NCBI GenBank assembly: GCA_015143295.1
Contig: CM026551.1
Location: 14,061,827-14,125,826 of the forward strand
From: Tetracentron sinense
Lineage: Eukaryota > Streptophyta > Magnoliopsida > Trochodendrales > Trochodendraceae
Length of the DNA stretch: 64,000 nucleotides
Direction of reading: 5' to 3'
In this document: piece by piece, positions 10,443 through 62,089 of the stretch
How the letters are laid out: each line of letters begins with the position of its first letter
Position numbering within the stretch: the stretch's first letter is position 1
The notes under the pieces: generated by a model
Told to the model about the DNA's origin: nothing
The model's input: only the letters and a program-made list of their open reading frames with translations
Database searches by the model: none
Made by a program: the position numbers and the translations under genes

Positions 10443-13430
10443 AATGGAGGAGCACAAATGGATTGAGGTTTTCTCATGTCTGATACAAGGTAGACTTATT
10501 GTAGACTTTCTTTGGTTTTGATTAGAAAATTGGTTTGCACACATCTCGACCTTTGATTCGAGCTGTGGCAGGAGTCTAAGGATAGGATGGCACCGGAAGA
10601 TACTTTACTTTGTGAGTTCAATCCTTTTGGTGCCTGCAACAAAAGGCCTGGAAAACTGTTCTTTATGCTTAGATGTACCTCAAGAAATCACAAGCTCGTC
10701 ATTTTGTGAAGCAAGATGGAAGGTCGTGAAAATGGTATGGATGGAATCGTGGAATTAAGTAAACCTTATGAGTCAGAATATGATTATTATGGCCCCCAAG
10801 CATGGAAGCACCTGTATAACTTGAACATGGATAGTTTGTTGGAAGGACGCCAGTACAAGGGGTTTTTGGAAATGCAACTTGGGAACCCAATGCTCAATCG
10901 AATGCGTAGTTTCATTTGTACGTTTTTGTTGTCTTTCTCGTGAAATGTAGAAGAACTGCTGTATCCAATGGATGATCCAGAGTAAGAAGTTTCACCAATT
11001 GGTTTGTAAAGGGATGAAACTCCTTCATTTATGATGGGTGCCTGCCACATTATTGATGTTTTTCGTTTTCTCTTACAAGAAGCTCCCTATTTTTTTGGAC
11101 CATTCAAAACGTCGGAAGAAGTTAATTCTAGATGTTATGGATGTGTTGTGTGTCCTGACTCCTTGGTTCTTCAGTTAATTCTAGATGTTGTGTGTCATTG
11201 AGATACCATTTCTACATCAGGGATGGACCTTTTCATCTTCATTGGGGATTTTATGGAATAATTATGTTTCCTAATGTTGCTCTTTCTAAGTATCTCGTGC
11301 GAATGGGGTGGGTTTTGTCGGTTTTTCATGTGGTCAGGAGCACCTAAGTATCTCTCATCTCCAGTTTGCGGATGATACTTTAATCTTTTGTGAAGCTTGT
11401 CATTCTCAGCTTCTTTATATTAGTTGTGTGCTCCGATGTTTTGAGGCAGTCTCGGGTCTTAGGGTAAATGTGAGATTGTCAGGGTTGGTGAGATAACCAT
11501 CACCAATCTTGACTTGCTAGCTTGTTGTCTAGGTTGTAAGTCAGGATCCCTCCCATCTAGTTATCTGTGCCTTCCCCTAGGTGCCTCTTTTAAATCCAAA
11601 GCAGTTTGGAATCGAGTTATCGAAAAATTCTCCTCCTGATTAATGGGCTAGAAATCGTCCTTCATATCAAAGGGAGGTAGGTTGACCCTCATCAAAAGCA
11701 CTTTTAGGAATCTCCTGACCTATTTCATGTCTATTTTGTCAATACCTAATTCTATAGCCAGGACCTTAGATCGTCTTCAGCATAGTCACAAAAATTGGAG
11801 TTTTTTTGAAAAAATCGCGTTTTAAACGCGAATAATGGCCTCAGCAATTAAATCGGCGATTAAATTGCCTTTTTTTGAATAAATCGACGATTCGCATTTT
11901 AATTGCGAAAAACGCGTTTAAATCGCGAAAATCGTGAATCGCGTGTATTAAACGCTAACCGATTTTTTTGTTAATTTTTTGATTCTCTTAGGGGCAAAAC
12001 TGTAATATGCCTTTATAAAACATAAAACCCTTAGGTTACTATTCACCGTCGATTAGTTCGGAAGAAAGGAGATTCAAAAGAGATGAAGGAGAAGAAGAAG
12101 GAGAAGAAGGAAAAGAAGGAGAAGAAGAAGGGTTACCTCGCAGCCTCTCGCCTCGACAGCCAACCTCTCACGGTCTTCCTCTTGCCTCGACAGCCAGCCC
12201 CTCACGGTCTTCCCAAACAATCTCTCATGGGCTCACCTCGATAGGATCTTAACCGGTAAGCCTCTCTCTCTCTCTCTTTTTTTTTTTTTGATCTTTGTTT
12301 CCCTTTTTTTTTTGTATATATATATTTAAAATTTTTAGCAGATCTTTTGGTGACTGATTTGTTATTGTATTCTGGTTGCATGGTTGAGTTTTCTTTAATT
12401 TCAAGCATGTTTTTCTCTGCTTTGTTTTAAGTGATCTTTGTTCGATTTTAGCGGTTTTAGGGTTCCTGATTTTGTTCTTTTGGGAAACAAATCTCAAATC
12501 TCTATGATTAGGGTTAGGGTTAGTTTCAAAACTCACTTTTTTTATAAAAAATTATGATGAATATGAACCAGCCATGGGTTTTGTAACTGCTAATGGCTGC
12601 AGAAAACATGCGTTAAGCATGGAAACCACCTCTGCCCCATCTGTCGTTCCAGATGGAAATCCATTCACGACTTCTGTTTTCTTCAAGCCAGGTAAAAATC
12701 AAAATTAGCAAATTTATGAATGAAGCCCCCAATTTTTTTAGATCTTTGTTTCCTCTTCCGTAAGAACGAAGCCCCCAATTTTTTTCCTCTTCTAAAAACA
12801 AATTTCGGGTTAATTTTTTTTTTCTCATTTATTTTTTGTTTATGCAAACCCTATCTTTTACTTGGAGAGAACTGCTATTGATTTACTTGGAGAGAACTGC
12901 TATTGATTTGCCATTGAATTGCTATTTATTTTTTGTTCATGCAAACCCTATCCTTGATGTTGTGCTTTTTGCTGAAAATGATGTTAAGGAATAAGGAGTG
13001 GGACTGTTTTGCCTTTCCAAGCACTTGAAACTTATTGTTCTTTTACCTATAAACTTATCATTCTTGCCGTAAATGATGTTAAAGAATTGTTTTGCTGTAA
13101 ATGATGTTAATGGTTGCCGCGCGGATGGTCTGAATGGTCTGACTCTGAGATAGGGGTTATCACTTATCAGAGTCATATGCATGAATAATTTGGAACTAAT
13201 TCAGAAATCAAATCATCCCATATTTATGTGTAGCTTCTTATATCTTGGATACCTTTTTTTTAATAGTTAATTTGTACTTTATTTTGGAAGACTTTATTTT
13301 GAATGACTGTATCACTGATTCACTGTATGTATGATCATGCTTAATTACTTATATTATGAATTATTTTGTGCCTTTTCTTTTCTTTAGGGACTAGGGTTTG
13401 AAATTTTGAATCAAAGTATCAAAGTTAACC

Positions 13431-15598
13431 ATGCCAAGAGCTAGAGATCCTTTTTGGGAGTATTTAACTAAAGAAGAGGGGACAACGATTCGATGTAATT
13501 TTTGTCAAGAAGTGTTTGTGGGTAGAATTACCCGTATGAAGTTTCATTTTTCAAAGTTATTAGGAAGAGATGTGCGGCCTTGTCCTTCAGTGCCTGATTT
13601 TGTTAATGAAATGGCACTAGAGGTCGTACAAGAGATAGATTCGCGTAAAAAGGCAAAGATAATGCAACTCGTACGGGTAATTCTCAAGTTGGTGGTGCTA
13701 GTGGAAGTTCTACGGGATCAACTGGGCATGCAAGCACAACTTGTGGTAGCCTAGGTCCTCAAGGAAAAGGAGGTCAGCCAAAGGTAATGCAACTCGTAAA
13801 GAAGAAAGAAAAAGAGCTTGCAGATCATTTGATGGCAAAGGCTTTGGTGGCGAATAATTTTCCGTTTCAATTGGCAAGATCGCAAGAGTTTCAGGATGCC
13901 ATCACAGCTGTTGCGAATCATGGCCCAGGTGATGGTCTCCCAAGTAGTGAAACCTTTAGGGTGAAGTTATTGGCAAACTTGAAGGAGGAAGTAGAAGAGT
14001 ATGTTAAGAACATTAAAAAATCTTGGGAAACAACTGGGTGTACTATCATGTCTGATTCTTGGACTGATGGAAAGAAAAGGCTACATGTGAACTTGTTAGT
14101 GGCATGTCCTAAAGGGACAATATTTTAAAAAAGTGAGTGTACGGTGGGGAAGAAGAAAGATGCGACATTCATTGCGAATTTCATCTCATCTGGGATCGAA
14201 GAAATTGGAGAAGAAAATGTTGTCCAATTCATATTAGACAATGCTTCCAATTACAGTGCGGCTGGAAATATTATTGAAGATAGATATCCAAATATCTTCA
14301 AGACATTATGTACAACACACTGTTTGGATTTGATTTTGGAGAGTATAGATGAGCTTCCTCATGTGAAGCCAATTTTGGAAAATGCAAGACTTATTGTGAA
14401 GTTTTTGTACAAGTTTCAACATGTTCTTGATTTGATGAGATTACACACACAAAATAGAGAACGAAAAAGGCCCCGTGCTACTAGATTTGCAACACAATTT
14501 CTGTGTTTGCAATCTATTCTTAAAGAGGAACAAGCTTTACGGTTTATGATTGCTTCAGCTAAATGGAGAGCTCTTCCTCAAAGCAAGACACAAGAAGGAA
14601 TAGAAGTTTTTTTTTTTTGGAAGGAAGGAATAGAAGTTACAAATATAATACAAGGTAATATGTTTTGGGAGAAGGGCAGAGAGATAATCCATACAGTAGA
14701 GCCTCTTGTTAGGGTTCTACGAATGGTAGATGGTGATGGTTCTACTATGGGATATTTATATGAAAGCATGGATAGGGCAAAAGAGGCAATTAAAGAAGTA
14801 TATAGAGACAACTCTGAGAAGTATATGCCTCTTTGGAAGATAATAGATGATAGATGGAACAAGACATTACACATTCCCTTGCATGCAGCTGCCGCTTACT
14901 TGAATCCTTACTTGTTTTATAATAAACTTGTGAAAGTGGATAAGGAAGTGAGGGTAAGCATTGAGATGATAATTAATAAGATGATCCCTAGTTTTGAAGA
15001 GAGAAAGCAGTTTAACAAGGAGCTAAAAAGTTACCACCAACTAGATAATGACATCTTTACCACATGGGCAGTTGATTTCCTTTTGGATTCACATCCAAGT
15101 AAGTATACATTTATTTTCAATTTTGAATTTTGATTAAGATTTTAAATTTTATAGTTAAATTTTTTTAATTATGTATTTGTATTGTACTTAGGGGTTTGGT
15201 GGGATATGTGCGGTAGTCTAATCCCGACCATTCAGAAGGTGGCAATCAAATTGCACAGTCAACCATGTAGTGCCTCGGGTTGTGAAAGAAATTGGAGTGC
15301 TTTTGAGGCCGCACACACGAAGAAACGAAACAGATTAGAGCCAAATAAATTACATGATTTAGTGTTCGTTCGTATGAACTTGCATTTGATGAAGACAAGT
15401 GCAAGTAAAGAAAAGAATGATTCAGAACCAATTAGTCTTGAGAAAATTTTGCCATTCCCAGATATTCCTGAAGTTGAAGGGGATCATGACCTTGAAGTTG
15501 AAGATGGAGCATCATCTTCCAATGAAAGTTTAGAGAATGAAGAGAGTGCAGGCTGTGCAGCTATTGATTATCTAGATTTTGATGCAACTTTTCTGTGA
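13431..15598 (+). pseudogene. hAT transposase (BED finger, DUF659, C-terminal dimerisation domain), disrupted
   Basis: Seen: starts MPRARDPFWEYLTKEEGTTI with a BED-type finger (CNFC near 13497, then KFHFSK). A Ser/Gly-rich linker continues in another frame at about 13670-13780, so a frameshift lies near 13665. 13787-14128 is DUF659-like (SWETTGCTIMSDSWTDGKKR). A second disruption near 14125-14150 leads into QFILDNASNYSAAG and TTHCLDLILE (14150-15110). A likely intron 15102-15191 precedes CSASGCERNWSAFEAAHTKK and the hAT dimerisation region, ending in an acidic tail at 15598. Acts by cut-and-paste in the nucleus; this copy cannot make a full enzyme. A 30-bp in-frame insertion is at 14609-14638. 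Confidence 0.9.
14595..14638. repeat. Micro-insertion in the transposase gene (T10ggaagg between 14-bp duplications)
   Basis: aaggaatagaagtt occurs at 14595-14608 and again at 14625-14638, with ttttttttttggaagg between. The added 30 bases keep the frame (10 codons). Resembles a minimal antisense retroposition product: poly-A tail plus six bases with a target duplication. Confidence 0.75.
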
Positions 15599-16756
15599 TT
15601 GAGAAATTCAAGTGAAATGATTTTATTTTGTAGTTGGTTGAACTTCGTAATACTTTTTTGTTGATGGAATTGTAAGGATAAACAACCAGTCTTTTGTTTT
15701 TAATTTGAAGGAGTTGATGATGTCTTGGTAAATTTTGATGCTTTGTTGGAATGAAGTGGATGTTGAAATGATATGATGAATATATTATTGTTGATAATAT
15801 TAAGAGTTGATGATGACTTAGATATATTAATTAATATCATATTTATATTTTATAAAAAAAATATTTCCCCGATTTTTTCCGAACTTGAACCATACCGAAT
15901 TATTCCCGAATCCGAATTTTTTCCCAAATTTTACCGAATTTTTCCCGAATTTTCCGCATTTTTCCGAACTTGAACCCTGCCGAATTATTCCCGAATCCCG
16001 ACTTTGTGACTGGTTTTCAGTGCAATTTTCTTTGGGGCGGGTCTGGTGAGAAAAAAAAATGTCACCTTGTAGCGTGGAAATCCATCTGTGTCCCTCTTTG
16101 TGATGGGGGCCTCAACTTTGCTCCAACTAGTCAAATCAATAAGGTTCTCTTGGGAAAATGAGTTTGGCAGTTTGGTGTCGAGCATGAGAGTTTATGGCGG
16201 AGGGTCATTGTTGCAAAATATGGAGAACTCTCTTGTTGGAAACCAAAGGCGGTTCGAGGCTCACATGATGTTGGTCTTTGGAAATGTATCATGAGTGTGA
16301 CAAAGTTACTTGATCCTCACGTTAGGTTTAAGATCAGGAATGAGTATGAAACTCTCTTTTGGAAAGATTTATGGCGTGGCCCGTCGAGACTTCAGGATTA
16401 CTTCGGGAGCATCTTTCTCCTTGCCCTTAACAAGGATGCTTTAGTTTCTTACTATGTAGAGAAGGGTGGGGCGTGAGTCCGTGTGGTGCCCCCGCCTGTG
16501 TCGCAATCTGAATGATTGGGAAGTGGAAGTCTTCCAACTCCTCTTGAGGAGATTGAGTTCCTCATCTGTTGTCCCTCAGCTTCGAGATTGTAGGTTATGG
16601 TGTAGGACCAACAAAGGTCGGTTCTCAGTGAGATCCTTATTACAGTCCCTTGGCCGAATACCAGTGCACTCCTTTTCCCATAAGGCTGTTTAGTTCTCAG
16701 GAATTCTGTCAAAGATATCTTTCTTCCTCTGGGTTGTAACATTGAATAAGATTCTT

Positions 16757-17544
16757 TTTTTTAATTGGTAAATCATATATATTAAAGCAAAGTAAAAGAA
16801 CAATTTACAGAGGCGTAAACTAACTACAAAAGCACAAGAAACAACAAGAAAGAAAGTAAATACAAGCCCACACGGCTACGAGGTAACCTCAACAATAAGC
16901 GACATCACTCACTTCTTGCCCCATAGGACTTGTGGAGCTCCATACCACTATCAACTGCTACACACGAGATAAGATCCTCAGGTCGGATGAAGATGAATTC
17001 TCAAAATCCCTACCATTCCTCTCCTTCCAAATAGCCCACGAAAGAGCCCTGGGCAAAAGAGTCCTGATGGATTCCTTAGCTCCCACCGAAGCCGACAAAT
17101 GCCATCCAGATAAGAAGCTCAGAAAGGATGAAGGGAAGACCCACTATACTCCCATCCGAGCCAAGAAATAAGCCCAAACCCTAAAAACAATCGGGCAATG
17201 TAAGAGCAAATGATCTACAAGACTCTTCCGCCTTCAGGCACAAATAGCAGCGGTTTGCCAAACTCTACCCTCTCCTCTTCAATTGATCCAAAGTAAGGAT
17301 TTTATTTAAACCAGAGGAAAAATGATACCTTCGTGGGAACCGGGTTAGCCCACACAGCCTTATGAGGAAAGGAACGCGGAAAGACAGGACCAAGTGACTA
17401 CAATAGTGACCGCACTGAAAATCAGCCGTTGTTACTACGAGACCACATCCTAATATCACTAATCTGGGATCTGGGGACGGAGGCACTCAACTGTGCCAAC
17501 AGACGCTGCATATCCTCAATCTCTCAATCATTCAACGCTCTCCT
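16757..17544 (-). mobile_element. Antisense L1-type LINE 3' fragment inside the unit B LINE
   Basis: Seen: begins with a T8 tract (poly-A of a minus-strand element) and an AT-rich tail, then reads on the minus strand as zf-RVT-like sequence, including SGLNKILTLDQLKRRG near 17265-17340. It interrupts the unit B LINE where unit A is continuous (about 9208-9217), with loss of about nine target bases. It belongs to a different LINE subfamily from its host. No clean target duplication is visible. Confidence 0.82.
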
Positions 17545-18235
17545 CATTTAAAGAGTAGAGGGTGGAATTTGGCAATTCGTTGTTATTTGTGCCTGACCGT
17601 GGAAGAGACGGTTGATCACTTGACCTTGCACTGTCCGGTTGTCCTTGAGATTTGGGCCTTTTTCCTCACTAGGTTAGGTGTGGAGTGAGTCTTCCCTTCC
17701 TCCTTGTTGAACTTCTTATCAGGTTGGAAATTGACGATAATAGTGGGGACTAAGGAAGCAATTTGGTTTAGACTACCTGGAGCTATCTCATGAGGTGTGT
17801 GGAAGGAACGAAATTGTCGCGCGTTTGACAATTCCTCCTCTCCCAATTCTCTCATACTGGCCCGTATTCGGCGCATGATTATGGATTGGTCGTCTATCAC
17901 TCCGGTGGGAGATGAAGTAGGGGCTATTTTGGTGTGAGGAGCCATGTTTTGTGGGCCATTGGCTATGGCTTTCTCTGTTTTCCCTTTACATGTTGTTTTC
18001 GTTTTTGTTTGCTTTGCTTTCCTTGGTTCGCTCATGGTGAACTTTGTTTGCTTGTTCCTTTATATATATTTAATGTCTTGATTACCGATCAAAAAAAAAA
18101 TGTTGCTATTTCTAACAATTTCGTTATCCATTAGGCTCTCACGGCCAGACCCCAGTTATACCCAAGTTCACTCTGATATGTAATTATTGTTGTTAGGGTT
18201 ACAACATAAGTGTGACTTCAATACTTTTCCTACAG

Positions 18236-18761
18236 GCAGGAACTCAGTTTTGGGATGAGAAACTGGAAAACGATCTTGCTGAAGGCTGAGTCAGTAGTAC
18301 TGCTTTTGACAGGTGGGTACGACCCAAAATAGATAGCATCTTCTGCACTTTGTCGAGTGATAATTGATTCCTGGTACGATGAAACATGTCCAGGTACTGT
18401 ATGGTACTTTTTGCCGGAATTGCAGCTGAAGCTCTTGTTTATGGAGAGGCAGAGGGTGGAGAAAATGACGAGAATCTATTCAGGAGCATCTCTGTTCTTC
18501 TGCAACCCCCATTATCTGTTGCACAGGTCTCTGAGTCACTACCTGATGGGTTTCTATTAATACTAACAAGCAGATACTGAACTTTGGTATTTTCTTTATT
18601 TTATAGATGTCAAAACGGCGAGGTGGTCAGTTCTACAATCATACAATCTCCTCAAATGGCATAAAAATGCTCATCGAGCTGCTGTTAAAGCTCTAGAAAG
18701 TGGTGGCAGTCTTAGTGTTGTCATCAGGAGGATTGTAGAAGCGATGCCTTCTAATAGATGA
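18236..18761 (+). pseudogene. Decayed duplicate of exons 5-7 of the FtsH-like gene
   Basis: Exon copies: 18236-18312, 18394-18526 and 18607-18761, with splice sites kept. The exon 5 copy has a TGA at 18287-18289 where the intact gene has CGA (Arg). The exon 6 copy still reads FAGIAAEALVYGEAEGGEND. The exon 7 copy is one base shorter near 18615, shifting the frame. These exons cannot replace 9916-10442, but the preserved splice sites could still give aberrant read-through transcripts. Confidence 0.93.
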
Positions 18762-19240
18762 AATGGAGGAGCACAAATGGATTGAGGTTTTCTCATGTCT
18801 GATACAAGGTAGACTTATTGTAGACTTTCTTTGGTTTTGATTAGAAAATTGGTTTGCACACATCTCGACCTCTGATTCGAGCTTTGGCAGGAGTCTCAGG
18901 ATAGGATGGCACTGGAACATACTTTACTTTGTGAGTTCAATCCTTTTGGTGCCTGCAACAAAAGGCCTGGAAAACTGTTCTTTATGCTTAGATGTACCTC
19001 AAGAAATCACAAGCTCGTCATTTTGTGAAGCAAGATGGAAGGTCGTGAAAATGGTATGGATGGAATCGTGGAATTAAGTAGACCTTATGAGTCAGAATAT
19101 CATTATTATGGCCCTCAAGCATGGAAGCATCTGTATAACTTGAACATGGGTAGTTTGTTGGAAGGACGCCAGTACAAGGGGTTTTTGGAAATGCAACTCG
19201 GGAGCCCAATGCACCAAGTCACCAACATGGTTGACAAGTA

Positions 19241-28529: not shown

Positions 28530-29255
28530 TCTTTTTTTTTTGATCGCTAAATAGGAAATTATATAAATGAAAAGAACATAATACTGAGGGGTTCACAAGA
28601 GGAGTGAACTCGAAAAAGAAACTAAACACAAAATAAGAAATCCTAGGAAAAAAAAAGAGAAACAAAGAGGCACAACCATGAGGAAGGAAATAAAAACTAT
28701 CAGCCCCAATTAACTAGCCAACCCTGTCCTCTCTTGCGAAGAGCCAAGATGAGAGAAGACGCATGACCCTTACACAAAGCTGATCTGGATGAAGGGGTGA
28801 CATTTCGAATACCCTCAGATTCCTCTCCTTCGAAATGGACCAGACAATAACCCCTAAGATAATGCTTCGGGCTTCCTCCAAACAACCCTCCACCTTAACC
28901 GAATGCTAACAACGTAAAAGTCTCGTAAAGTACGAGGAAAAACCCACCAAATAACCAACCGTGAAAGGAACTAGCCCCATAACCCGAACGCAAAAGGGCA
29001 ATGCAAAAGAAGGTGATCAACTGATTCCTCCTCTTGGAGGCACATGAAACACCCATTTGCCATCTTGCATCCTCTATTTTGCAAGTGATCACATGTGAGG
29101 ATTTTGTCTAGGGTTGCCGACCAGAGAAAGAAGGAAACTTTGGATGAGATACTCTGGTTCCACACCTGCTTATGCGGGATGGGACCTCCTTGGAGATCTC
29201 TAGAGGCCTTGTAGAGAGATCTCACTGAGAACTGACCCTTGTTCAAATTCCGACA
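28530..29255 (-). mobile_element. 5'-truncated L1-type LINE 3' fragment (antisense)
   Basis: T11 tract at 28531-28541 (poly-A on the minus strand), then minus-strand zf-RVT region at 29246-28971: GQFSVRSLYKAS, VSFFLWSATLDKILTCDHLQ, GCFMCLQEEESVDHLLLHCP. Related to but distinct from the LINE in the FtsH-like gene. No clear target duplication. Confidence 0.86.
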
Positions 29256-39599: not shown

Positions 39600-40370
39600 G
39601 ACGGAGACCAGGCTTGCGTCAAATAGAGCTTGGACCAACCCCAAATTATGCCTATGCACCCCCAAAAATCCCAGGGGCAGAATGCAATGCCCCAGGGCAC
39701 TCATAGATATAGAGCCAGCTTGTGGCCAGAATTTAAACTATTGCATGGTTTCTTTTTCATTTCCAAAATAGACAGATGGATCATGGTAGAGTTTGTGCTG
39801 ATGACTCAAAGGAAGTTCACAAGGCAAACTAACAATCCCCACAATATTTCCTCTCAACGTTTGTCCAAATCATCATATCCTGAAAGAAGGAAAAGGGGAG
39901 AGTCACCACAGTGATCTCACAGCACCACTTTATTAGCTAAATATGTGGCATTTATCTACGACAGCAATGATCAAAGCAACCAAGAAAAAATAAGTTTTCA
40001 CCCAATTCAGTTCAATGAAAACTGCTATTATTGGGTACATAACATGCTAACTAAAGAAAAATCTTTAATTATTTTCAGGCTAGATGGACAAACTTAAAAT
40101 CCCATCATAGTGCTAAAGAAAAACTGACTGATTTTATCAAGATTTGGATTAACCACGACCAACAATCATTGGAACTGTCATAATTAAGGATTAACCACGA
40201 CCAACAATCATATTGCCCAGGTGTTCTTATCCATCAAGGAATTGTCACTTTATTGACAGTTCAAAGTGACTGGATAGTCCAAATGAGGGTCCAATCGACC
40301 CATAAGGTCATCTTAGAGGATAGAAATCAAAGAATCAGGTGGATCCTTGTTCCATTTGGAATGATGTAGC
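39600..40370. repeat. Block sharing several segments with the H-protein gene region
   Basis: 39852-40085 (tatcctgaaagaaggaaaagg and on) matches 48185-48420. 39690-39770 (cactcatagatatagagccgg-like) matches 43110-43165. 39774-39835 matches 50280-50340. 40180-40280 matches 50010-50130. 40285-40370 matches the 3' part of the LINE ORF at 43360-43445. The order differs between sites, so this is not one simple duplication. Confidence 0.75.
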
Positions 40371-40555: not shown

Positions 40556-40937
40556 ATGAAGAGCAGCTCTCCCATATGCATCTACCATAATATTATATGA
40601 AGCTCTATCTGGCTCACATCCCATGTGCTGCATCAGAGAGAATATTTTGGCAGCCCCATACGGAAAACCTGAACGGCTGTTAGATGGGGAAAGTAAAGAG
40701 CACTATTAGGTACATCATTGGAACATTTATTTCAGGACAATAAAACATCAGAAAATAAACTGTATCAGCTATTAACATGTGAGCTTCCATGAGGGCATTA
40801 TAAGCATACACATCAAGCTCATGTCCAGCTTCTTGCAACTCCATGAATACTTCTGCTGCTTTCTCACAAAGTCCATTCCTTGCAAATGCAGTGACCAGAG
40901 CAGTATAAGTGCTATTACAAGGAAGTTCATCTATGAT
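40556..40937 (-). pseudogene. PPR gene fragment (P-class, AT2G35130-like), two exons
   Basis: Minus strand: exon 40937 to about 40780 reads STYTALVTAFARNGLCEKAA, ELDVYAYNALMEAHM; exon 40668-40556 reads FPYGAAKIFSLMQHMGCEPD then RASYNIMVDAYGRAALHG. Known: these match consecutive PPR motifs of AT2G35130. The middle residues (YSRAG expected) are missing at the exon join and no further exons were found on either side, so this is a fragment. Organelle RNA binding is the family role; this piece is unlikely to work. Confidence 0.78.
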
Positions 40938-43319
40938 CTGGAATTAACAGATTGATCAAAATTATAATCTAAGATGTCTAGTTACTATTAAGAATACATA
41001 TATGGATTATAGTAACATGGGTATAAGACTACAAATTTCTATCTAAGAGACAGATTCCCATACTTGGCTTCCCATCATACGCATTGAAACCATGAGAATT
41101 ATTTTCAGTTTGATAAAACCAACTACCATGGTTCTGTATAAACCAGTACGGTAAAAGATGTGAAATCATCATCTGAACAGAATGCAGGTAAATATTTATA
41201 CAAATTTAATACAGTTAATGCAAGCAAATAGAAGTATGCCTCATTTCCAGGTTATGATTACAACACAAAAGATGAAGTGCTTCCATTTCTGGATACCTGC
41301 TGTCATGGATAAAATCCACCGAGTAAAACTTAAGAGATTACAAGATAGTAGGTAAATGTACTCAGATAAAGGCCATATCTTCGCATAAGTAAATTGATTC
41401 CACTTTCTTATAACTAATATTTACAGTCTTAGCTAAGGATTATTTACAGCCTTATGTCTAGATACTATAAATAATATTTACAGCACTCAGTCCAGTACAG
41501 TAATCAATTCAAAAGATGTGAAATCATAAATAATCATCCGTGTATAATTTTCATTGGTCAACAGGTTTGACAGTCAGGTTCAATTCAGCAAATAAACCCA
41601 AACCTGATGCTGAAGCTTCATTTCTTGCCTTTGTGTGTGTGTGTGTGGAATCATTTTAGCTATGCATGTCCAGGGAAGTCCATGGTGCTCCTTGGGATGC
41701 ATTATTTACAATGCATCAATGATATAACTTTCGAAAAGGTGCACAGTCATGGTGATCAGACAATTCATTTAACAGTTCTCACCTAGGGGATCTGATAAGT
41801 AATAAACAACCTGTTTCGGGGATTGTAACCATTTATGTTACACATTCTCCGGACCGTGTCTCACACTTTTTTGGATGTCCGAAAGAACGTGATTGAGTGA
41901 AGTGTTGCAGAAATCCATTGGTGGATGTTTCTCAGCATAAATATCCTGGGTGTGGATTATCAAATGCTGGGTCTTTCCCTTGCACTGGAAACATGTGTAT
42001 ATTTCATTTGGAAGGCCTTACCCAATTGGGATCCTATACTTCGTTTATGAAAACATCCATGATTATTTTTCTGTCCATTATGTTCGAACTATTGTAGTTA
42101 ACAATTTTATGTTACCATGAACGAGAATCGGCACGAACTTGTAAAAGTTATGCAAAAAAAATTTCTTACCAGCACAATTGGATCCCATTGCTTATTGATA
42201 TGAACCACGGGAATTATTGGCTCTCCACCAGCAATCACTCTTACAACCAAAGAGAAGCCCGCATCTTGATTCTATAAAGGGATTATTTAAGATACATTCA
42301 ACAATCAAACTACAAATATAAAAGGAGTTAACAATACAATTGATCACTGTTATATATAATCTCTGACATGTGAGTTAACTGCTCAAAGGAGTCAATGTGA
42401 ATAAAATTATACAAGTGACGTTGAAGCACATGGTTTCTCGAATAGAATAGGAATGCATGATAAGCTACTGAGCTATCATTTTATCTGTACTTGTCTGGTT
42501 AAAAAAAAAACTCCGATAATTTTTTTTTTTTTGGATGGTAACTCCGATAAAATTTAAGAGGTACATATACAGTAAATCACATTAACTAGTTATCTCCAAT
42601 TCAGCAACACTTAGGGATCCTTAGGTACAAATTGTATGTTTTTTATTTTATTTTTAAATATACATATTAAATCATTTGATTTATAAACTTGGCTACACTT
42701 TTCCTGCTTAGTTAAGACCAATATACTCTGCACAATTAAATGGAAACAAGCTAAAACCATCGACATTTGCTAATTTACCTAAGCAAATCAGAAAACAAAA
42801 CAAAACCTACAACTTAAGAGCACCAGCTGAGAAAGAAAACCCTACAACCTTTTCATAATAACTGTCACTCTGCTACTGCATCTTTGATTCCCTTCAGTTC
42901 TGGTCTCTGGCAAGGTTTCCAGATCCTATTTCTCTTCCTGGGGGTTCCAAGAATCAGATGAACCAATTGGATCACTTAGAACTGCATCCGGATTCTCAAT
43001 TATAATTGAAGATGCCAAACTTTCCCCTGTTCCAGTATTAGCATTACTGATAAACATTGGTCCAAGGATGTGCAATGCTAAGTGCAGGGGTGCCCTAATG
43101 CATGCCCCACGTCACTCACAGATATAGAGCCGGCTGGCTTGTTGCATGTTTTCCTTTTCAGTTCCCAAATAGAAGATGTACAAAAGCAAAACAGGAGAAA
43201 CATCTTAAGGGATCAAATGAATTTATATTGAACAAGATATCAAAGAAGATAATTTGTATTTATACAAAACCAATTACAAAAAATGTATACATTTGAACAA
43301 AAGAATCTGTACCGGACAT
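40938..43319. other. Intergenic with scattered exon-like and repeat pieces
   Basis: 41106-41145 and 41425-41450 resemble 47335-47395. A minus-strand stretch with acceptor and donor at about 42272-42171 reads FSLVVRVIAGGEPIIPVVHI; unrecognised. Another at about 43065-42930 reads PMFISNANTGTGES and ends NPQEEK-stop; unrecognised. A short GT run is at 41633-41647. No gene confirmed. Confidence 0.35.
42509..42550. repeat. Micro-insertion (T13ggatggt between 11-bp duplications)
   Basis: aactccgataa at 42509-42519 is repeated at 42540-42550, with a T13 tract and ggatggt between. Same form as those at 14595, 19241, 48315 and 56371. Confidence 0.75.
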
Positions 43320-44600
43320 ATTTTTTTTTTTTAGACAAAAGGTTTACAAGATCAAACGAGGGACCAACCGACCCATAAGGTCATCTTCCAGGATAGGAAT
43401 CAAAGAATCAGGTGGATCCTCATTCCATTCTTCATGATGAACAGCTTCTACAGCCATGTTAGCTAAATGGTCAGCAGCATGGTTTGCTTCCCTGTACTCG
43501 TGATGAGCCACAACCCCCGTGAAATGCTTGAGAAGATTTTGACAGCTGATAATAAGAGAAGAAATTTCTTCGTAGCAAGGTTTCTGCAGCCCATTTAACA
43601 TCTCTATCACAAGTTTGGAATCGCCTTCAATCAAAATGCACTCAACATGGAGTTTAACTGCCAATCTAAGCCCATCATACAATGCCGAGGCCTCAGCAAC
43701 TAAGGGGGAGGTGTTAATTGGGAGCGGTGTCACAAAAGCGCCAATAAAGCTGCCATCTGCATCTCGAAGTAGCCCTCCTGCTCCTGCCTTGCCTGTTCCC
43801 CCTTTCGCAGAGCCATCAAAGTTGAGCTTGGTCCATTGACTAGATGGACGAGTCCAAGCAATATAACGAAGAGAGACTGGACGACTTGATGGCTGTTCAA
43901 CACCTCCTTCAATGGGAGCTAAAACCCATGAACCATATGCACTATAGCTCATAGACCGACCATCTTTAGTATGAATGATAAATGGCTTCATACTACATAC
44001 TTTCGCTTCATGACCCACCCGACCACAAGTAAAGCATAAGCTGGGAATTTCATACTGGAAGTTCTGGAAAAGCCCACCTTCTACACCATCAATCCTGTTC
44101 CCTGTAGGCAGTCGAGAATTCAAATCCACTTCCACACACATACGTATAGACTGCTCTCCAGAAATTTCCTCATACACAGCTATCTTGATGGGTTGTCCAG
44201 CTACAGACCCCATTTCATAGAGGAATTGGGGATCCCAATACTCACAAGGCAGCTTGGGAAATCTAACCCAAATCTGACTGAAAGCCATGCTTTCACTCTC
44301 GGCACTGAAATCCGGGTGCCATCTTTTCATCACAAGGCACTGCTTGCCCATGAATAAGGGTCCCTGCGACCACACCCGACTGAAGTCGTCTACTTCAGAG
44401 AAGTCAAAGACATAGAAGTTATTACGTTGTTCAAGTACGTGGACATAACCACTCAGTTTCCAGGTTGAATGAAGCCGTGACATATCTAGTTTTCCCCGGA
44501 GTAGCTTACCAATCAGCTTAAGGTTCAAATAACCAGAGACTTGTTCTTCCTCTTCTAACACTTGCCCTACTTTTAGCTTACCCATGTATGCTATCTGCCT
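43320..44600 (-). mobile_element. Internally deleted LINE derivative with poly-A tail
   Basis: On the minus strand the 413-codon reading (separate entry) is followed by about 10 bases and an A13 tract (T-run at 43321-43333), the mark of reverse-transcribed insertion. Endonuclease and reverse transcriptase are absent, so it must have moved with enzymes from another LINE. The 5' border is near 44590-44640. No sure target duplication was found. A second piece of the same 3' sequence lies at 40285-40370. Confidence 0.82.
43344..44585 (-). CDS. DUF4283 - CCHC zinc knuckle - RNase H fusion (LINE-derived), intact 413 codons
   Basis: Starts at the ATG ending 44585 and runs without a stop to 43344. 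Residues 1-175 are DUF4283-like (NLKLIGKLLRGK, WKLSGYVHVLEQRNNFYVFD, WVRFPKLPCEYWD). C184-x2-C187-x4-H192-x4-C197 is a zinc knuckle. Residues about 253-380 are an RVT_3-type RNase H with all four acidic residues: Asp257 (NFDGSA), Glu298 (AEASALYDG), Asp322 (EGDSKLVI) and Asp372 (NHAADHLAN). Known: DUF4283-CCHC is the usual ORF1 of plant L1 LINEs and this RNase H sits at the end of ORF2. Here they are joined in frame and ORF2's front is lost. An RNA-binding nuclease is possible by inference; host use is unproven. Confidence 0.88.
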   Translation of the reverse strand: MGKLKVGQVLEEEEQVSGYLNLKLIGKLLRGKLDMSRLHSTWKLSGYVHVLEQRNNFYVFDFSEVDDFSRVWSQGPLFMGKQCLVMKRWHPDFSAESESMAFSQIWVRFPKLPCEYWDPQFLYEMGSVAGQPIKIAVYEEISGEQSIRMCVEVDLNSRLPTGNRIDGVEGGLFQNFQYEIPSLCFTCGRVGHEAKVCSMKPFIIHTKDGRSMSYSAYGSWVLAPIEGGVEQPSSRPVSLRYIAWTRPSSQWTKLNFDGSAKGGTGKAGAGGLLRDADGSFIGAFVTPLPINTSPLVAEASALYDGLRLAVKLHVECILIEGDSKLVIEMLNGLQKPCYEEISSLIISCQNLLKHFTGVVAHHEYREANHAADHLANMAVEAVHHEEWNEDPPDSLIPILEDDLMGRLVPRLIL

Positions 44601-45251
44601 TCACTTGTCTTCCTGTATCCAAAAGAGAATATTTTGGTTAGTGTTGAATGATTTCACCAACAAAAGTGATCGTACGTTTAATCATAGAAAATGGTATTTC
44701 AATCAAGCGACGACTTGTATAGAAAATGGTATATTACCGGAATGAATAACTGGGTTTATGCTCCAACGATTCCAAAAGACTAACAAGGCACTTCCAGATA
44801 TGATCTATGAAGCTTTATTAATGCTTTGACGGCCAAAAACAAATAGGAAGAAATTTGATTTTTGAAGCTTTAATGGCTAAAAACAAATATGAAGACTTCG
44901 TTTTTTTCTCAGATGTATCCAGAAAATGTTATCTCGTCCCTTGGCTTTTTTCAATTTCTTATATAAGCATCAGGAAATGTATGGTTTTATTTTAGAAACT
45001 TTTTTTTTATGGTATTAAATTTAGAAACTTGATATCGAAGCCATTTAAAAAAAATATATAATTTGTCTTTTGATGGTTTTATCGACCCTCTCGTGCTGGG
45101 CTGGGCCGGGCCCACCAGAATTGGGACATTTTTAAAATGGGTTTTTTCATATCGGCGGTCTAGGTTTATCCTAGTTTGAAAATTCACTGTTATATAACAG
45201 TTTTGGTTTGCAAATTAACTAATTGTTTTATTTGCAAGCGTTGGACAAAGA
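44601..45251. other. Intergenic, no gene seen
   Basis: AT-rich; includes a short near-repeat pair at about 44800-44900 (gaagcttta, ggccaaaaacaaata / ggctaaaaacaaata). Nothing coding recognised. Confidence 0.35.
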
Positions 45252-46125
45252 AACTCAATCCTTAGTTCCATTAGACTTTCATTTGTGATTGTTAATAAAA
45301 TGACTATTATGCCTTTAAGAATTAAGAGTTTTAATTACCTTACAAAGCCACTTTAACTGCTCTTGAACTGTGGTTAATAAGTTTTAACCATAGGTCAAGG
45401 GAGTTAAAAGTGAATATATATGGTTTTTTTTAAACCAAAGTTAGATGCTTTAACTCTAAGAGTTAGTAAATCTTAACCACAAGTAAAGGGAGTTAAAAGA
45501 GGACAAGTTATTTTTTCTTTTTATCTAAAACCAAGGTTAGATGCTTCAACACTACGGGTTAGTGAATCTTAAACACAGGTCAAGGGAGTTAAAAGGGACA
45601 GTTAATTTTTATTTTTTATTTTCTAAAAACCAAGGTTGCATGCTTGAATCCTAAGGGTTTGTTAATCTTAACCATAGTTAAATGGAGTTAAAAAGGGAAC
45701 ACATTTTTTTTTTCTAAAAACTAAGGGTATATGCTTTAACCCTAGGGTTAGTAATCTTAACCACAATTAAAGGAAGTTAAAAAGGGACACGATAATTTTT
45801 TCTTCTAATACCAAGGTTAAATGCTTTAACCCTAAGGGTTAGTGAATCTTAACCACAATTAAAGAGAGTTAAAAAGGGACACGATAATTTTTTTTTTCTT
45901 TTAAAAACCATGGTTTGATGCTTTATCCTTAAGGGTTAGTGAATCTTAACCACAATTAAATGGAGTTAAAATGGGACACATTAACTATAGGGGTTAAAAC
46001 TTGTTAACCATAGTTAGAAGACAGTTAAAGAGGCTTTGTGAGGTTAGAAATATCTTAAGGCCATAATAGTTATCTCACTAGCAATTACAAACGAAAGTCT
46101 AACTAAACTAAGGATAGGGTTGAGG
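45252..46125. mobile_element. Long-TIR foldback element with tandem-repeat core
   Basis: Left arm 45255-45360 (ccttagtt, ttagactttc, actattatg, cttaag, ttacaaagcc) is matched in reverse by 46020-46120. Core 45360-46030 is about seven tandem units of 85-95 bases with words gttagtgaatcttaacca and agttaaaaagggacac. No transposase. The same core, inverted, occurs in the element at 56613-57530, which has different arms. Confidence 0.78.
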
Positions 46126-48557: not shown

Positions 48558-51500
48558 TCAATGCTTTGCATCTTCTTCTTCACAAAACTTGGAGTACTGA
48601 TCAGAGTCCATCAACGTATTTAGCTCCCCTTCATTGCCCATCTCCACTTTTATAATCCATCCATTTTCATACGGGCTCGCATTAACCTGAATCAAGAAGT
48701 ATAGATTAAAATAGATTAAATAACTCTCTTCCCAGTGTTCTTTACTTGAGAGAAGCTGAAACAACCAATAACAGGAGGGAAAAAAAACAGTGATTTCCAC
48801 GAATGAATTAAAGAGACAAGAATGAATTTGCAATAATAAATGTTGTAAGGGTTTATTTGGAGAGAATCAAGGCAGGAAACTACCAAAGTAAGCATACAGC
48901 ATTGATGCAACTAAAAGCCTATTGCTTGTTTTAGTTTGTCGAATGAAATCAGCTCCACAGTCCACACACAAACACAGAGGTTAGATCATCAGACAACCTT
49001 TGCAAAGGGAATGTTACGAATACAAACCCTTATTCATTGATTTAACTGTAGCGACATATGTACATATGCATATTCTCTGTGAATATAAATAAGGTTTTGT
49101 TTACAGTTATAACATAAAATTTTACTCGGATTGAGTTCAGAGTCTTCAGACATTGTGAAGCAAAACTGGCAATTGACCGTACTTTGTAAGAACTCAGTTT
49201 CAAGTGCGACGTAGGTGTTTTGATTCATAAGCAGATATTTCATATCTAATGGTTTAGAACTTAAGTTAATTTTCTATATTATAATCAATATTAACTTGAT
49301 TCTGACAGCACACATGTGTTCAACACATTGCAGCCGGGTCAAAACATCAACAGGACCAGTTTTAGTTGAACCTGGTATAACTGACTGGATTTCTTTCATT
49401 TGTTCCACGAGTTTGTAGGAGAAATCATGTCATATTGGAATGCAAATATCACCAAGAACCCACTTTATATGACACATAAGCTCAAACAACTAGATCAATT
49501 TCAAAACATTATGAGAAATTATCAGAGTAATATTATGGGCAATAATCTATCATTTGATGACTCACCAAACCGGGGGAACTGTTGAGCCCTTCATTGACTT
49601 CAATCACTTTTCCTGAGATAGGAGAGTTAATGTCACTAGTTGCCTTGACACTCTCAACCGCCCCAAAACTGCTTCCCTGTGTTACAGTGGTCCCCACTTC
49701 AGGTAATTCCACATAAACAACATCACCTAAATGGTCCTGAGCATGGTCGGTTATCCCTACGGTTGCAGAATTACCATCAACTTTGACCCACTCATGAGAG
49801 TCAGCATATTTCAGATCCTTCAGAACTGCAAATGGAGGAAAACAGAAGTCTCAATAATAAATGACATAATCAAGGGTTAATTACAAACCCTACAATCTAT
49901 AGAGATTTTTATTTAGGGAAAAAAGAGAAAATTTTGCTATGATATACAGATGCCATATAACTGACACCTAACCATCGATCTGGCCTGGCCAGTTAATGGG
50001 CCATTATGTGGATTAATCACGACCAACAATCACATTGCACAGGTGTTCTTTTCCATCTAAGGAATGGTCACTTTCTGGTCTTTCGACAGTTCTCAATAAC
50101 TTTATTGACAGTCCAAAGTGACTGGACAGTCGGGTTTCATGGCATGTCCATGCTTATTCATCTCTGTATAGCATAAAAAAAAATCCCATCTGCTTAAGTA
50201 TATAGAGGAGTCTCCTTCTGGCTCTCGTACTCTATATATGGTTGTATATAATTTGTATAATTGTGCGTGTGGAGATAAATAAATGGATCATGGTAGAGTT
50301 CGTGCTGACGACTCAAGGAAGGCTGCAAGGCATACAAACAATCTCCCGAATCGATCTTAAATTCAATTTGATAGGAGCCAGCTGGTTCTGACTAGCACAG
50401 AGAGAAGCTTTAACTACATCAAGTAAATTAGTTCATTACAGAAAAATGCTAGAAAGTGATGGATTCTGTTTGTGAAAGGTGTATAGCCTACACGGTTATC
50501 CTAAACAAAACTTCACTATGATAAGCCAATTCAGATGCATGAAGATCTGGTTCTATGACAGGGACTACAGGGGAATTACAACTACGGAGTGGTGTTGTGA
50601 CAATCTCCACTCTTTAGAGAATCTCGGAATAAAGTGATTATAAAAGCCCACTTGCATCTAAAGGCACTCTAAGTACAATTTTCTAATTTTTATCACAAAT
50701 TTTATTGTCAGCCAAGTTTGTCAATTAGAATCACTCTGAATTAGAAAAATCGCCAATTTGCGCATATACTCTACAGTCTACACAGGCAAAATAACTTTTC
50801 CCCGCTCAACACGTCTCAGGTTCAGATGCTCCATGAAATCATGTGAGGAACCTCCATTTTTTAATTTATAATCTGTTCTGTTGCTATAGCTTACAGACTT
50901 GCAAACCTCGTTCTATCTTTTTTTCCTTTTCTTTTATCTTTTTTTCTTTATGTATAGAGCTATATTGTTCATTTTTCTATTAATTTCCCACTTTGTAATT
51001 CTCCAAAAAGGCCCCTTTTCTTTTATTCTTAATATATTCCAATGTAGACAAATTGTCTAGGCGACATCTAGGCAATAGGGAGTTCCCTAGGCGAGGCAAT
51101 GCCTAGTCGTTGCTTGGGTGAAGCTTAGGCAACAAAAATCTACTTTTTCTATTTAAACTATCAAAAGTTAGTGAGTGCCCGCCTAGATCATGATCTAGGT
51201 GATAGGGGTTATTGCTAGACGAGGTGGTAGCTAGGCAACATTTTGACTACACTAATATATTCCCACCATCAAAGAAAAAGGTAAAGGAATAATCACAGAT
51301 TTTTTAATACAACAATTTCTAAAAGTTGATAAAATCATATGCCAGAGCAAAGAATCCAGAGAAGACACGATAATCTTTAAGCCTTCTCACTTGACTTTGT
51401 TAGAGTGAAAATCTACCTACGCATTATAATAAATCTATTGCTGACTTTGGCGAAAAGTTGCTTTCTGCCAATTCTTCAAACCACAGTTTGTATAATGTAA

Positions 51501-56612: not shown

Positions 56613-57530
56613 GGGTAAATTACACTCACCTCCCTTGAGGTTTGGAGTAATTTCAGAAACCTCCCCTCTTGTTTCTGAAATTACATTGACCTCCCTTGTT
56701 AGGCTCATCCTATTAACTCCGTTAACTAATGTTACTATTTTCCAATTTTACCCTTATTACTTAGAGGAAACACACAAGCTTAGTTTGAAAGCTCAACCAA
56801 AAAACACATAAACTTCCTAAGCCGCCACATGTCCCTTTTAAGACACACTAACTATGATTAAGATTCACTCACCCTTAAAGATTTATTCATCTAACCTTAG
56901 TTTTTAGAGAAAAAATAACTTTATGTGATTATGCTTAACCACAATTAAAGGGGGCTCTACAAGCCGCCACACTTCCCTTTTAACACCCATTAAATGTGGT
57001 CAAGACTCACTCACCCCTAAGATTTATCCATCTAACCTTAGTTTTAAGAAAAAATATTAACTTTATGTTAATTATATTGAACCCCAGTTAAGTGTCTCAA
57101 TAAGCCGCCACGTGTCTCTTTTAATACCCACTAACTATGGTTCAGATTCGCTTAACCCTAGAGTTCATCTATCTAACATTGGTTTTTAGAAAAAGAAATA
57201 TATAATTACCTTAAGTTGATACTATTAACCTTAGTTTTGGAAATATATATTAACTTAAGTTGATACTATAACCTTAGTTACAAAACCCAATTATCATTTA
57301 TTTTATTGTATTAATTGACTTTACAAAGGGTAATTTAGACATTTTAAAATGTTTAGTGATGATATCATCAAAGTCCATCCATAAAAGTAACGGCCAACTA
57401 ATGGAAGGGGGTAAATGTTATAGAAACCAAAGTTGAGGGGAGGTCAGTGTAATTTCATAAACAAGAGAGGAGGTTTCTGAAATTCCACCAAACCTCAGGG
57501 GAGATGAGTGTACTTTACCCCCCCCCCCCC
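56613..57530. mobile_element. Long-TIR (Mutator-like) element, 918 bp
   Basis: Left arm gggtaaattacactcacctc ... gaggtttgg ... tttcagaaacctcc is matched in reverse by the right end (57420-57520) over more than 100 bases. Flanks are A9 on both sides (56604-56612 and 57531-57539), fitting a 9-bp target duplication, though a homopolymer is weak proof. Core 56760-57300 has about four tandem units of about 120 bases (gccgccac, gattaagattcactca, ctaaccttag), homologous in reverse to the core of 45252-46125. Confidence 0.8.
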
Positions 57531-57684: not shown

Positions 57685-59705
57685 ATGGTTACTATGAAAA
57701 TCCTTGGATGGAACTGCCAAGGGTTGGGCCACCCTCGGACAGTTCGTGTGTTGAGGGATATAGTCTCTCATTCTCGGCCACACATAGTTTTTCTGATGGA
57801 AACAAAAAATAAACGTCCAAAGATTCTTCAGCTAGCGCAGAAACTCAATTACGACAATGTAGCCACGGTAGAGCCCATTGGGCTTTCTGGTGGGCTTGCT
57901 CTCTTGTGGTCCAGTTCTGGGCCTCCAGTTATTGTAAATTCAGCTGATCCTAATATGATTGATGCTTCTATCTCTGACTCTTCTAATGGATGGAGGATGA
58001 CCTTCATTTATGGCCCAAACAATGCAACTTATCGGCACATATTATGGAGTAACTTAACTGATGTGGGACAACACTGTTCGGAGCCCTGGTTATGCTTGGG
58101 GGATTTCAACGACATTTTGGCAAATGGTGATAAATTAGGAGGTAATGCTCTAAACCCTTCTCAGCTTTGTCCTTTTCAGAACTTAATTTCCAATGCAAAC
58201 TTAATTGACCTGGGGTTCCAAGGCCCATCCTTCACGTGGACAAACCGTAGACAACACCCGCATTTCATAGCAGCTCGCCTGGATAGAGCCTTTGCAAACC
58301 CAGCTTGGCGGGGAGGTTTTCCACAGGCGTTTGTCAAAATTCTTCCGACCATTGGGTCGGATCATTGCCCACTCCTGATGCTCAGAAGTCATCCGATTGG
58401 CTTGGCATAAAACTGTGTTGGGTCCAAAATGTTCAAGATCAGCCAATGCCTCTGCTTCTACCGGGAGGACCTGAGCAAATGGAACTAAACTTCTTTTGAT
58501 TTCCTTCCGGCTCGTATCAATATTCCAAAGCTAGTATTTCTGAAATTCAAGTTCAGCGGACAAATTCTCCAAACAGACAACACCTTTTTGCTCTCACAAA
58601 CGAGTTGGACTCAGCCCTCACTCAAGAAGAGGCTTTGTGGCGGCAAAAAGCCCGGGCTGATTGGCTTGCTCTTGGTGATAGGAATACCCGATACTTTCAT
58701 ACCGCGGCGGTGAACCGGCACCGAAGGAATCGAATTTTCTCCATTCAAGATGAGCAAGGACAATGGTTGAACTCAAAGCTTGAAATCATTGAGCACGTTC
58801 TAAAACATTTTTCTGATTTGTTTACCTCATCTCAGCCAGACGGTATTGCAGAGGTCCTCACGATGATCCAGCCCCGGGTTACTGAGCAGATGAATTCCGA
58901 GCTTTGCTGAGCGGTTTCTTCCATTGAAATTAAGGAGACTTTTTTCCAAATTGGTCCGTTGAAAGCTCCCGGACAAGATGGTATGCCGGGGCTCTTCTAC
59001 CAAAAACACTGGGATATCGTGGGAGAAGAGCTGTGTGATGCCATCCATCTCTTCTTTAGTCAGGGTTTTTTGCTCCAACAGATCAATTCTACCCATATTG
59101 TCTTGATTCCAAAGGTGCCTAACCCGGTTAATCTAAACCAATACCGGCCTATTAGCCTTTGCAAGAGGGATCGATTGATGGCGGTAAAGTTAGATCTGAA
59201 TAGAGCTTATGATCGTGTGGAGTGGCAATTTCTCTTCCAAATTTTGGAGAAAATGGGCTTTTGTGATAAATGGATTGACTGGATAAGGCAGTGTATAACC
59301 AAGGTATCATACTCAGTCGTCCTAAATGGGGAACCTCAAGGCCATATTATACCAACCCGGGGTCTTCGGCAAGGAGATCCATTATCTCCCTACCTTTTCT
59401 TGTATGCGCTGAGGCTCTGTCTTGTCTTCTTCAAAATGCTTTGCACACGGGGAAATTAAGTGGGATTACCATCACGAGGAGAGCGCCAACTCTTTCTCAT
59501 ATGTTCTTTGCGGACGACTGCTCGATCTTCTTAAAAGCCAACTTGGATGAACCTGCCTTCTTGTTGGAGTTACTTTCCAAATATGGTCGAGCTTCCGGAC
59601 AGATCGTGAATCACAACAAATCAGGAGCTTTTTTCAGTGCCAATACCCCTTGGTGTTTCAGAAGAACGATTGCCAAACTTCTTCACATTAAAAATGTATC
59701 TTCTT
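57685..59705 (+). mobile_element. L1-type LINE ORF2: endonuclease and part of reverse transcriptase
   Basis: 57685-58410 reads MKILGWNCQGLGHPRTVRVL, VFLMETKN, FIYGPNN, CLGDFNDILANGDKLGG and IGSDHCPLL: a complete AP-type endonuclease domain with its catalytic Asp/His blocks. 58605-58910 is the linker. 58959-59710 is reverse transcriptase: KAPGQDGMPGLFYQKHWD, YRPISLC, AVKLDLNRAYDRVEW, LRQGDPLSPYLFL, FFADDCSIF. About 60-70 usual residues between YRPISLC and AVKLD are missing, there is a stop near 58408 and a frame change near 59410. The sequence stops at 59705, where an LTR element begins. Confidence 0.92.
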
Positions 59706-62089
59706 TGTAAGCACCCCAATTTTGCACCCCTATAGTCTTTTTTATACTCTTAAAAACCCTTTTAAAAATCCTCTTTTACAACCCTCTTTTCAGGTGTTTT
59801 GATTTTCAAAAACTACCCCTAGGGTGAAAAATGATCAAAATGCCCCTAGGGTAAAAAATGACCAAAATACCCCTAAAAATGTGCCAAAAAGTTTTCATTT
59901 GGTTCAAAATGATTTTACAAATTTTTTGATGAATTTTACCTATTTTGAGGATTAAATTTGACTTAAAATGGTTGAAATTGACCGAAATGCCCCTGAGTGT
60001 AAATTGACCAAAATACCCTGAAAAGTTCAAAAAAATCCACGTTTTATCTAAAATATTATTCTGAATTTTACCAGTTCAATTTTGACTATTTTTGGGCTCA
60101 GAATGTGCTTAAAACGATAAAAACAGTTTTTCGACAAATAGGAGTATAAACAAAAAAACCCAAAAATCAGTTTTTTGAAGGGCCAAACAGGCTCTAAGGG
60201 GCAAGCTCGCCCTTTTAAAAGGCGCGGGACCATGTGGGCCCCACTTTCATGGCAAACTTCATTTTTTATTATTATTTTTGTTCACAATTAAATATATTAA
60301 AATCTCGTCGTTTAAAAAGGCGCGGATTTAGAAATATCCCCGTCGACGCGTTGCCGACTCACTGTTCGCACCGCTTTACTATTCATTAAAATATAATAAA
60401 TCGCGCCCTTTAAAAAGGCGCGGGCACTACTCCGAGACCCTATAAATACCCCTCCTCCCTTCCTTCAAAAATCATTCATTTTTCACTCCACTCTCCTTGG
60501 TTTTCCGAGTTTCATTTCCGAAACACTAAATCTTTAGTTTTTTTTGGAGAATCCCTCTTTGTCCGAAAGTTCGCCGTACTTTCGGGCAGGTAATCCCTCT
60601 ATCCCTAGTCTTGCTTTCAACTTTTTAGCTTTATTAAATTGCTTAGTTTCTAGTTTTTGTCTTTAATATCTAGTTTAGACTGCTTGCCTGTCGAACCTCT
60701 GCCCAAATCCCGGTTCAAATATAGTCTCGCTTAGTCGAACCCCTGCCCAAATTTCAGTTCAAATATAGCCTCGCCTAGTCGAACCCCTGCCCAAATCCCA
60801 GTTCAAATATAGCATCGCCTAGTCGAACCCCTGCCCAAATCCCAGTTCAAATATAGCCTCGCCTAGTTGAACCCCTGCCCAAATTCCACTTCAAAACTAG
60901 CCTCACCTAGTCGAACCCCTGCCCAAATCCCAGTTCATAGCCTCGCCTAATCGAACCTCTGCCCAAATTCCAGTTCAAATATAGCCTCGCCTAGTCGAAC
61001 CCCTGCTCAAATTCTAGTTCAAAACTAGTCTCACATAGTCAAACCTCTGCCCAAATGTCAATTCAAAATATAGCCTCGCTTAATCGAACCTCTGCCCAAA
61101 AACCCTGATTAAACCCCAGCTAAACCCTAATTAAACCCCAGTTAATCCTGATTAAATCCCAGTTAATCCTAGTTAAACCCCAGTTAACCCTAGTTAAACC
61201 CTGATCAAGCCCTAGTTAACCCCAGTTAAACCCTGATTAAACCCCAGTTAATCCTAGTTAAAATCTAGTTAACCCTAGGTAACCCTACCTAAACCCGAGG
61301 TAAACCCTACCTAAACCCTAGCTTAACCCTAGGTAAACCCTGGCTAAACCCTAGTTAAACCCTATCTACCTATTCAAACCCTTGTCAGAGCCTCGATTCA
61401 AACCCTGTTCAAATACCCACCGCCAGGCTCCTCAGCACGAGCTTAAAAGGCCATTTCGCTCCCAAATCAGCGAAATCCATCAAATCAAATCATCCAAACA
61501 TCGTTCCTCAGCACGAGCTTAAAAGGCCACATTGCTCCTCAGCACGAGCTTAGAAGGCCACCTCGCTCCTCAAATAGGAGCAACAACCCTCAAACCTTTC
61601 AATCACTCACAATCCAGTCCAATCAAACCAAATCAAACCATCAACTCCCATCCGGAACTACGTGTGGCTTGATTCCACTAACTGTGGATACGTAAGCAAC
61701 CCTGATCGGGTTCAGCTCTCCCTAGGATAGAATCCCTATTCTGTTTCTACTCTATCCATCTCAATTCATGTATTTCATTCAATATTACATTGCTCAGCAT
61801 ATAGATAAAATTGCAAGCTTCTTTATGGTTTCCTTTATTTGATTCAGACTTAGGGAGTAGGTAACCATCTCCGGATGGGGGTTTAGGGGTGCCTAACACC
61901 TTCCCCTAACTCAACTGAATCCCTTACCCTGACCTCTGATTTCCAGACTAAGCCTTATCCAACAATTTTAGGGACCTATTTCCCTCAGAATTAGATAGGT
62001 GGCGACTCACAACTCAATTACAATTTATCACTATTCCTTATTCGGATTTATCCTGATCGGGAATGGAGGGTAAAATTCAGGTACCCACA
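59706..62089 (+). mobile_element. LTR (left) of a probable Ty3/gypsy element, 2384 bp
   Basis: Starts TGTAAGCACCCCAATTTTGC and ends ..GTACCCACA, followed two bases later by a primer-binding-site-like word tggcgactctgctgggg. It lies inside the LINE at 57685. Parts: AT-rich left third; a segment near 60290-60430 with repeated 'ttaaaaaggcgcg'; a probable TATA (tataaatac, 60441) and transcript start zone; nine or so 44-bp repeats (60683-61097); telomere-like aaccctagttaaac repeats (61095-61370); then blocks shared with the solo LTR at 32664. The right partner would lie outside the window. Confidence 0.82.
60683..61097. repeat. 44-bp tandem repeats within the LTR
   Basis: Units with tcgaacccctgcccaaat and cagttcaaatatagcctcgc recur about nine times with small length changes, followed by a degenerate ccctagttaa array to 61370. 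Confidence 0.9.

Follow-up and report, generated by a model that had tools for sequence, protein, structure and literature searches.

A DUF4283–zinc knuckle–RNase H frame in Tetracentron sinense most likely represents a LINE copy with an internal deletion, probably retroposed

DUF4283 is described as a conserved domain of LINE ORF1 across diverse plants (PMC11288735), and an RNase H of the archaeal type, marked by an active-site arginine, is reported to occur in the Ta11 L1 elements of higher plants (PMC5348765). In human L1, LINE RNAs that have been shortened return to the genome as SpIREs (spliced integrated retrotransposed elements), and those with an altered ORF1 are described as depending on ORF1p supplied in trans (PMC5860796). 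Here, we analyzed a 64,000-nucleotide stretch of T. sinense DNA (hereafter, the window), in which the RNA-binding part of a plant LINE ORF1 and a LINE-type RNase H share a single open reading frame (Table 1).

The frame lies on the minus strand, which the initial annotation had left unnamed, and runs from an ATG at 44585 to a stop codon at 43346-43344, specifying 413 amino acids. The RVT_3 match spans the complete Pfam model, while zf-CCHC_4 stays under its curated cut-off and so does the Pfam RNase_H model (19.2 bits; cut-off, 25.8). The CCHC spacing of the knuckle is kept, and all four RNase H acidic residues (D257, E298, D322, and D372) are present, plus R365. No endonuclease or reverse transcriptase model of Pfam matches the frame; because an autonomous LINE requires both, the frame is a LINE derivative rather than an autonomous element. 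The ORF listing, the Pfam matches, and the residues themselves thus bear out what had been claimed from inspection, namely, one intact 413-codon DUF4283–knuckle–RNase H frame with the CCHC and four acidic residues kept and the reverse transcriptase missing between the domains. The length of the frame is beyond chance expectation: it extends over 418 codons from stop to stop, exceeded in the window only by a PPR frame (643 aa), whereas the longest open frame in each of 30 Markov-1 simulations of the window averaged 147 codons and never surpassed 182. An AlphaFold2 model of the frame, computed in single-sequence mode, has a mean pLDDT of 33.0.

Table 1. Coordinates of the fusion frame, its parts, and other LINE pieces in the window
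Feature	Positions	Strand	Details
DUF4283–CCHC–RNase H fusion frame	43344-44585	-	413 codons; ORF listing and Pfam
DUF4283 (plant LINE ORF1, RNA-binding)	44169-44474	-	Residues 38-139; PF14111, E 1.8e-22
Zinc knuckle	43992-44063	-	Residues 175-198; C184-C187-H192-C197; zf-CCHC_4 22.8 bits, cut-off 27
RNase H domain (RVT_3)	43452-43823	-	Residues 255-378; PF13456, E 6.8e-29, PDB relatives
Probable ORF1/ORF2 junction zone	43851-43919	-	Residues 223-245; inferred
12-A run, putative poly-A tail	43321-43332	-	11 nt past stop codon
Sibling of the frame's 3' end	40280-40369	-	77 bp at 89.6% identity; 30 codons, one stop
LINE endonuclease piece	57685-58410		Shifted or partial frame
LINE RVT_1 piece	58959-59459		Shifted or partial frame; also piece 59291-59710
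LINE zf-RVT pieces	8930-9616 and 28971-29255		Shifted or partial frames; also piece 8379-8933

The two halves of the frame probably meet in the short junction zone of Table 1, as delimited by the gap between a YG-W motif from residue 217 on, which we take to be the one that trails the zinc knuckle, and the start of RVT_3. R365 corresponds to the active-site arginine of archaeal-type RNases H and completes the D-E-D-R-D set. Among solved structures in the PDB, its best relatives are Rv2228c and Sulfolobus ST0753 along with a halophile-type RNase HI, and NCBIfam returned prokaryotic RNase HI models, every one under its cut-off; the nearest named RNases H are of the archaeal and bacterial RNase HI types. 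Judging from these residues and matches, the RNase H half appears to be of the archaeal type, as in Ta11-type plant L1 LINEs. Since DUF4283 is a LINE ORF1 domain and the archaeal-type RNase H is found in Ta11 L1 elements, both halves would fit a single parent, a plant L1 LINE. The anatomy initially proposed, an ORF1 part joined to the RNase H of ORF2, was right according to the domain matches and the cited LINE descriptions.

We regard it as on the whole probable that the frame derives from a plant L1 (Ta11-like) LINE by internal deletion and was retroposed in trans. The parent would have carried ORF1, with DUF4283 and the zinc knuckle, and ORF2, with endonuclease, reverse transcriptase, and archaeal-type RNase H. 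Splicing, or a template jump as the RNA was being reverse transcribed, may have removed from its RNA the segment between the end of ORF1 and the start of RNase H, and the machinery of an intact LINE would then have written this shorter polyadenylated transcript into the genome in trans. The joined frame would have come out in phase by chance and has stayed unbroken so far. If translated, its protein might bind RNA via DUF4283 and the knuckle and possibly cut RNA:DNA hybrids, and it would be unable to copy itself. This origin fits best because an A run sits beside the stop codon, LINE domains occur on both sides of the junction, and a broken sibling lies nearby; other LINE pieces in the window are a further point in its favor. 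Against it stand the lack of a standout target site duplication (TSD), a 3' UTR of just 11 nt, compared with the 189 bp given for poplar Celine (PMC11288735), and the possibility that the A run is not the true end of the element. No parent LINE bearing both this ORF1 and this RNase H turned up in the window, and the deletion is for that reason one that we infer.

The A run, seen as T12 on the plus strand, bears out the claim of a poly-A stretch behind the frame. Only six A runs of at least 11 nt occur on the strand of the frame in the 64 kb, and arithmetic from that count puts the chance that such a run falls no more than 50 nt from the stop codon at about 0.5%. When the sequence past the A run was compared with the 1 kb upstream of the ATG, no match stood out as a TSD from those obtained with random pieces. 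The best candidate (10 nt with one mismatch, at 45124-45133) did no better than 60 of the 150 random pieces of 1 kb used as a null; two of the 150 scored 25, probably by overlap with the site itself. Widening the search to 2 kb (to 46600), for which no null was drawn, yielded A-rich matches only. A TSD may have been missed owing to an old or long 5' end. Of the two readings originally offered, a recent non-autonomous retroposon with a coding advantage or a constrained gene, the retroposon, understood as a deleted LINE copy, is the better fit to the A run, the LINE domains, and the broken sibling, but its recency gains no support from the TSD search. Among full-length copies of poplar Celine, a TSD of at least 10 bp is reported for 43 of 58, and 14 of the 58 have retained the two ORFs intact (PMC11288735), so that plant LINEs with an intact ORF, or without a TSD, are not out of the ordinary. 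Downstream of the frame, 43097-43178 shows weak similarity to 39681-39778, downstream of the sibling (73% over 98 columns); homology may thus resume past the A run, which would then perhaps not mark the true end.

The sibling lies 3 kb away on the strand of the frame, with its 77 bp at 40280-40356 matching the 3' end of the latter. Over the 30 codons that can be compared, 11 differ, by three synonymous changes, seven replacements, and one stop. This pattern looks like neutral decay; 30 codons say nothing firm about the main copy. Exon-like fragments seen by eye at about 40586-40943 hint that the sibling might lie inside an intron of a PPR gene. A tblastn search of the window with the frame retrieved no other DUF4283 and no second RNase H of good score, and a degenerate DUF4283 DNA pattern matched the window once, at the fusion frame itself. 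A stretch at 1235-1429 on the minus strand may be a decayed RNase H with stops, although the match is very weak (tblastn E, 0.10). The other LINE fragments, initially noted as broken, do indeed occur as shifted or partial frames in all pieces scanned (Table 1).

LINE DNA is also tandemly duplicated in the window, as a 3.3-kb stretch repeated across 7571-11780 and 16013-19212. Its matching segments are 7571-8477/10889-11780 (93.6%), 8470-9214/16013-16756 (94.0%), and 9223-10893/17544-19212 (96.8%). A 4.2-kb insertion (11781-16012) interrupts the second unit; it contains a DUF659 frame (14144-15133), has near-matching ends CATAGTCACAAA...TTTGTGACTG, and is flanked by an 8-bp duplication, GTCTTCAG/GTTTTCAG. 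We take this insertion to be a hAT-like DNA transposon. Upstream of the frame, a tandem array of units of ~95 bp, about 75 to 84% alike, occupies 45372-45982, and similar units recur in inverted orientation near 56830-57208. A glycine cleavage H-protein exon is found at 49536-49850 on the minus strand, and a frame near 48558-48700 looks by eye like the last exon of that gene (48558-49850, minus). Another stretch, 42926-43051 (minus), suspected by eye to be the last exon of a host gene, has no Pfam match.

A deletion could alternatively have taken place in the genome, removing the middle of a full-length LINE, from the ORF2 endonuclease to the reverse transcriptase, and leaving the frame as a chance in-phase scar. 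The domains follow the order and orientation of a complete LINE and are trailed by a poly-A run, and rearranged LINE DNA does occur elsewhere in the window, the tandem duplication being one example. Such an event would nevertheless have to be a later deletion that happened to be in phase, an outcome expected about one time in three, in an older copy whose remainder had stayed free of stops and frameshifts; we thus judge it improbable. Collapse of a LINE during sequencing or assembly, with loss of its middle, would produce the same picture, and a misjoin is conceivable in repetitive LINE DNA represented here by the assembled sequence only. However, the joined frame is in phase, the window contains no N, and nothing else in it hints at a misjoin, which renders an artifact very improbable indeed.

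How long the frame could have persisted by chance bears on a different kind of explanation. In a simple model of neutral decay that assumes 60% transitions, 0.1 indels per substitution, and 80% of indels breaking the frame, an unbroken frame survives in 24% of cases at 1% divergence, 5.5% at 2%, 1.1% at 3%, and 0.07% at 5%. Under this model, the intact copy is either young, below roughly 2 to 3% neutral divergence, or constrained. The fusion might accordingly be a host gene or a long-lived non-autonomous family under selection, for example, because it binds RNA and clears RNA:DNA hybrids or interferes with LINE RNA. Besides the low modeled survival at 2 to 3%, this view draws on a frame that has remained unbroken, with its four acidic residues, arginine, and knuckle kept although no TSD remains. 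It is also consistent with the stand-alone archaeal-type RNases H reported for oomycetes, where 21 of 25 genomes carry them, in part possibly as cellular genes and in part as remnants of LINEs (PMC5348765), and with the DUF4283-zf-CCHC_4 products listed, with no RNase H stated, in a cassava proteome and a ryegrass pollen transcriptome (PMC5365129, PMC7694982). Youth would explain the survival equally well, however, a LINE-like A run adjoins the stop codon, and the passages retrieved from the literature on DUF4283 describe neither such a fusion nor a function for it. Selection on the fusion is therefore unlikely in our view, if slightly ahead of in-place deletion, with assembly error last in what is a rough order.

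Nor did the collections searched yield a relative bearing the junction: none was found among the 25 pattern-matching stretches of genome_contigs or the 14 of viral_contigs, and the degenerate DUF4283 DNA pattern retrieved nothing from either. By tblastn, phages returned no match, and plasmids returned a single record, an archaeal RNase HI family protein of Salinibaculum (38.4% over 21% of the query). These collections comprise viruses, phages, plasmids, and prokaryotes and hold no plants; absence from them says little about plants and is no test of selection on the fusion, so that it speaks neither for nor against a coding advantage or constraint. Predicted plant proteins with the DUF4283–CCHC–RNase H order may well exist in public databases, in which case the fusion would be a recurring LINE by-product.

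A bolder proposal treats the fusion as a stand-alone gene under selection or as a self-sustaining non-autonomous family of plant retroposons. Its protein would coat RNA of the LINE type and cut the RNA:DNA hybrid formed by that RNA, and LINE copying would be either promoted or impeded as a result. We consider this doubtful; instead of a new plant gene, the frame most likely represents a LINE copy that has lost its middle and was probably retroposed. As a dead copy, it would be one more LINE derivative bearing an in-phase scar. Should the junction recur across plants, it would represent an RNA-binding nuclease built of LINE parts alone, and whether plants keep LINE pieces to control hybrids or LINEs would become directly testable. 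The significance of the locus is modest unless the junction proves conserved.

HAL1 and other ORF1-only non-autonomous LINE families resemble the frame in that they keep ORF1 coding without a reverse transcriptase. Unlike the frame, to our knowledge, they carry no RNase H fused to ORF1. Stand-alone oomycete RNases H of the archaeal type likewise lack a reverse transcriptase and are in part read as LINE remnants, yet they belong to another lineage, and the sections available of their description mention no DUF4283 partner (PMC5348765). Plant L1 LINEs share more with the frame: DUF4283 in ORF1, as in Celine (PMC11288735), the D-E-D-R-D RNase H, as in the Ta11 group (PMC5348765), and a terminal A run, of 12 in both Celine and the frame (PMC11288735). 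The frame departs from these elements by its missing endonuclease and reverse transcriptase, the union of ORF1 and RNase H in one frame, and the lack of a visible TSD; the ORF2 of Celine is itself described with endonuclease and reverse transcriptase only (PMC11288735). Human SpIREs offer a parallel for the route proposed here, a shortened LINE RNA returned to the genome. Their described joints fall within the 5' UTR or link the 5' UTR to ORF1 (PMC5860796), whereas the putative splice in the T. sinense frame would connect ORF1 to the C-terminal domain of ORF2.
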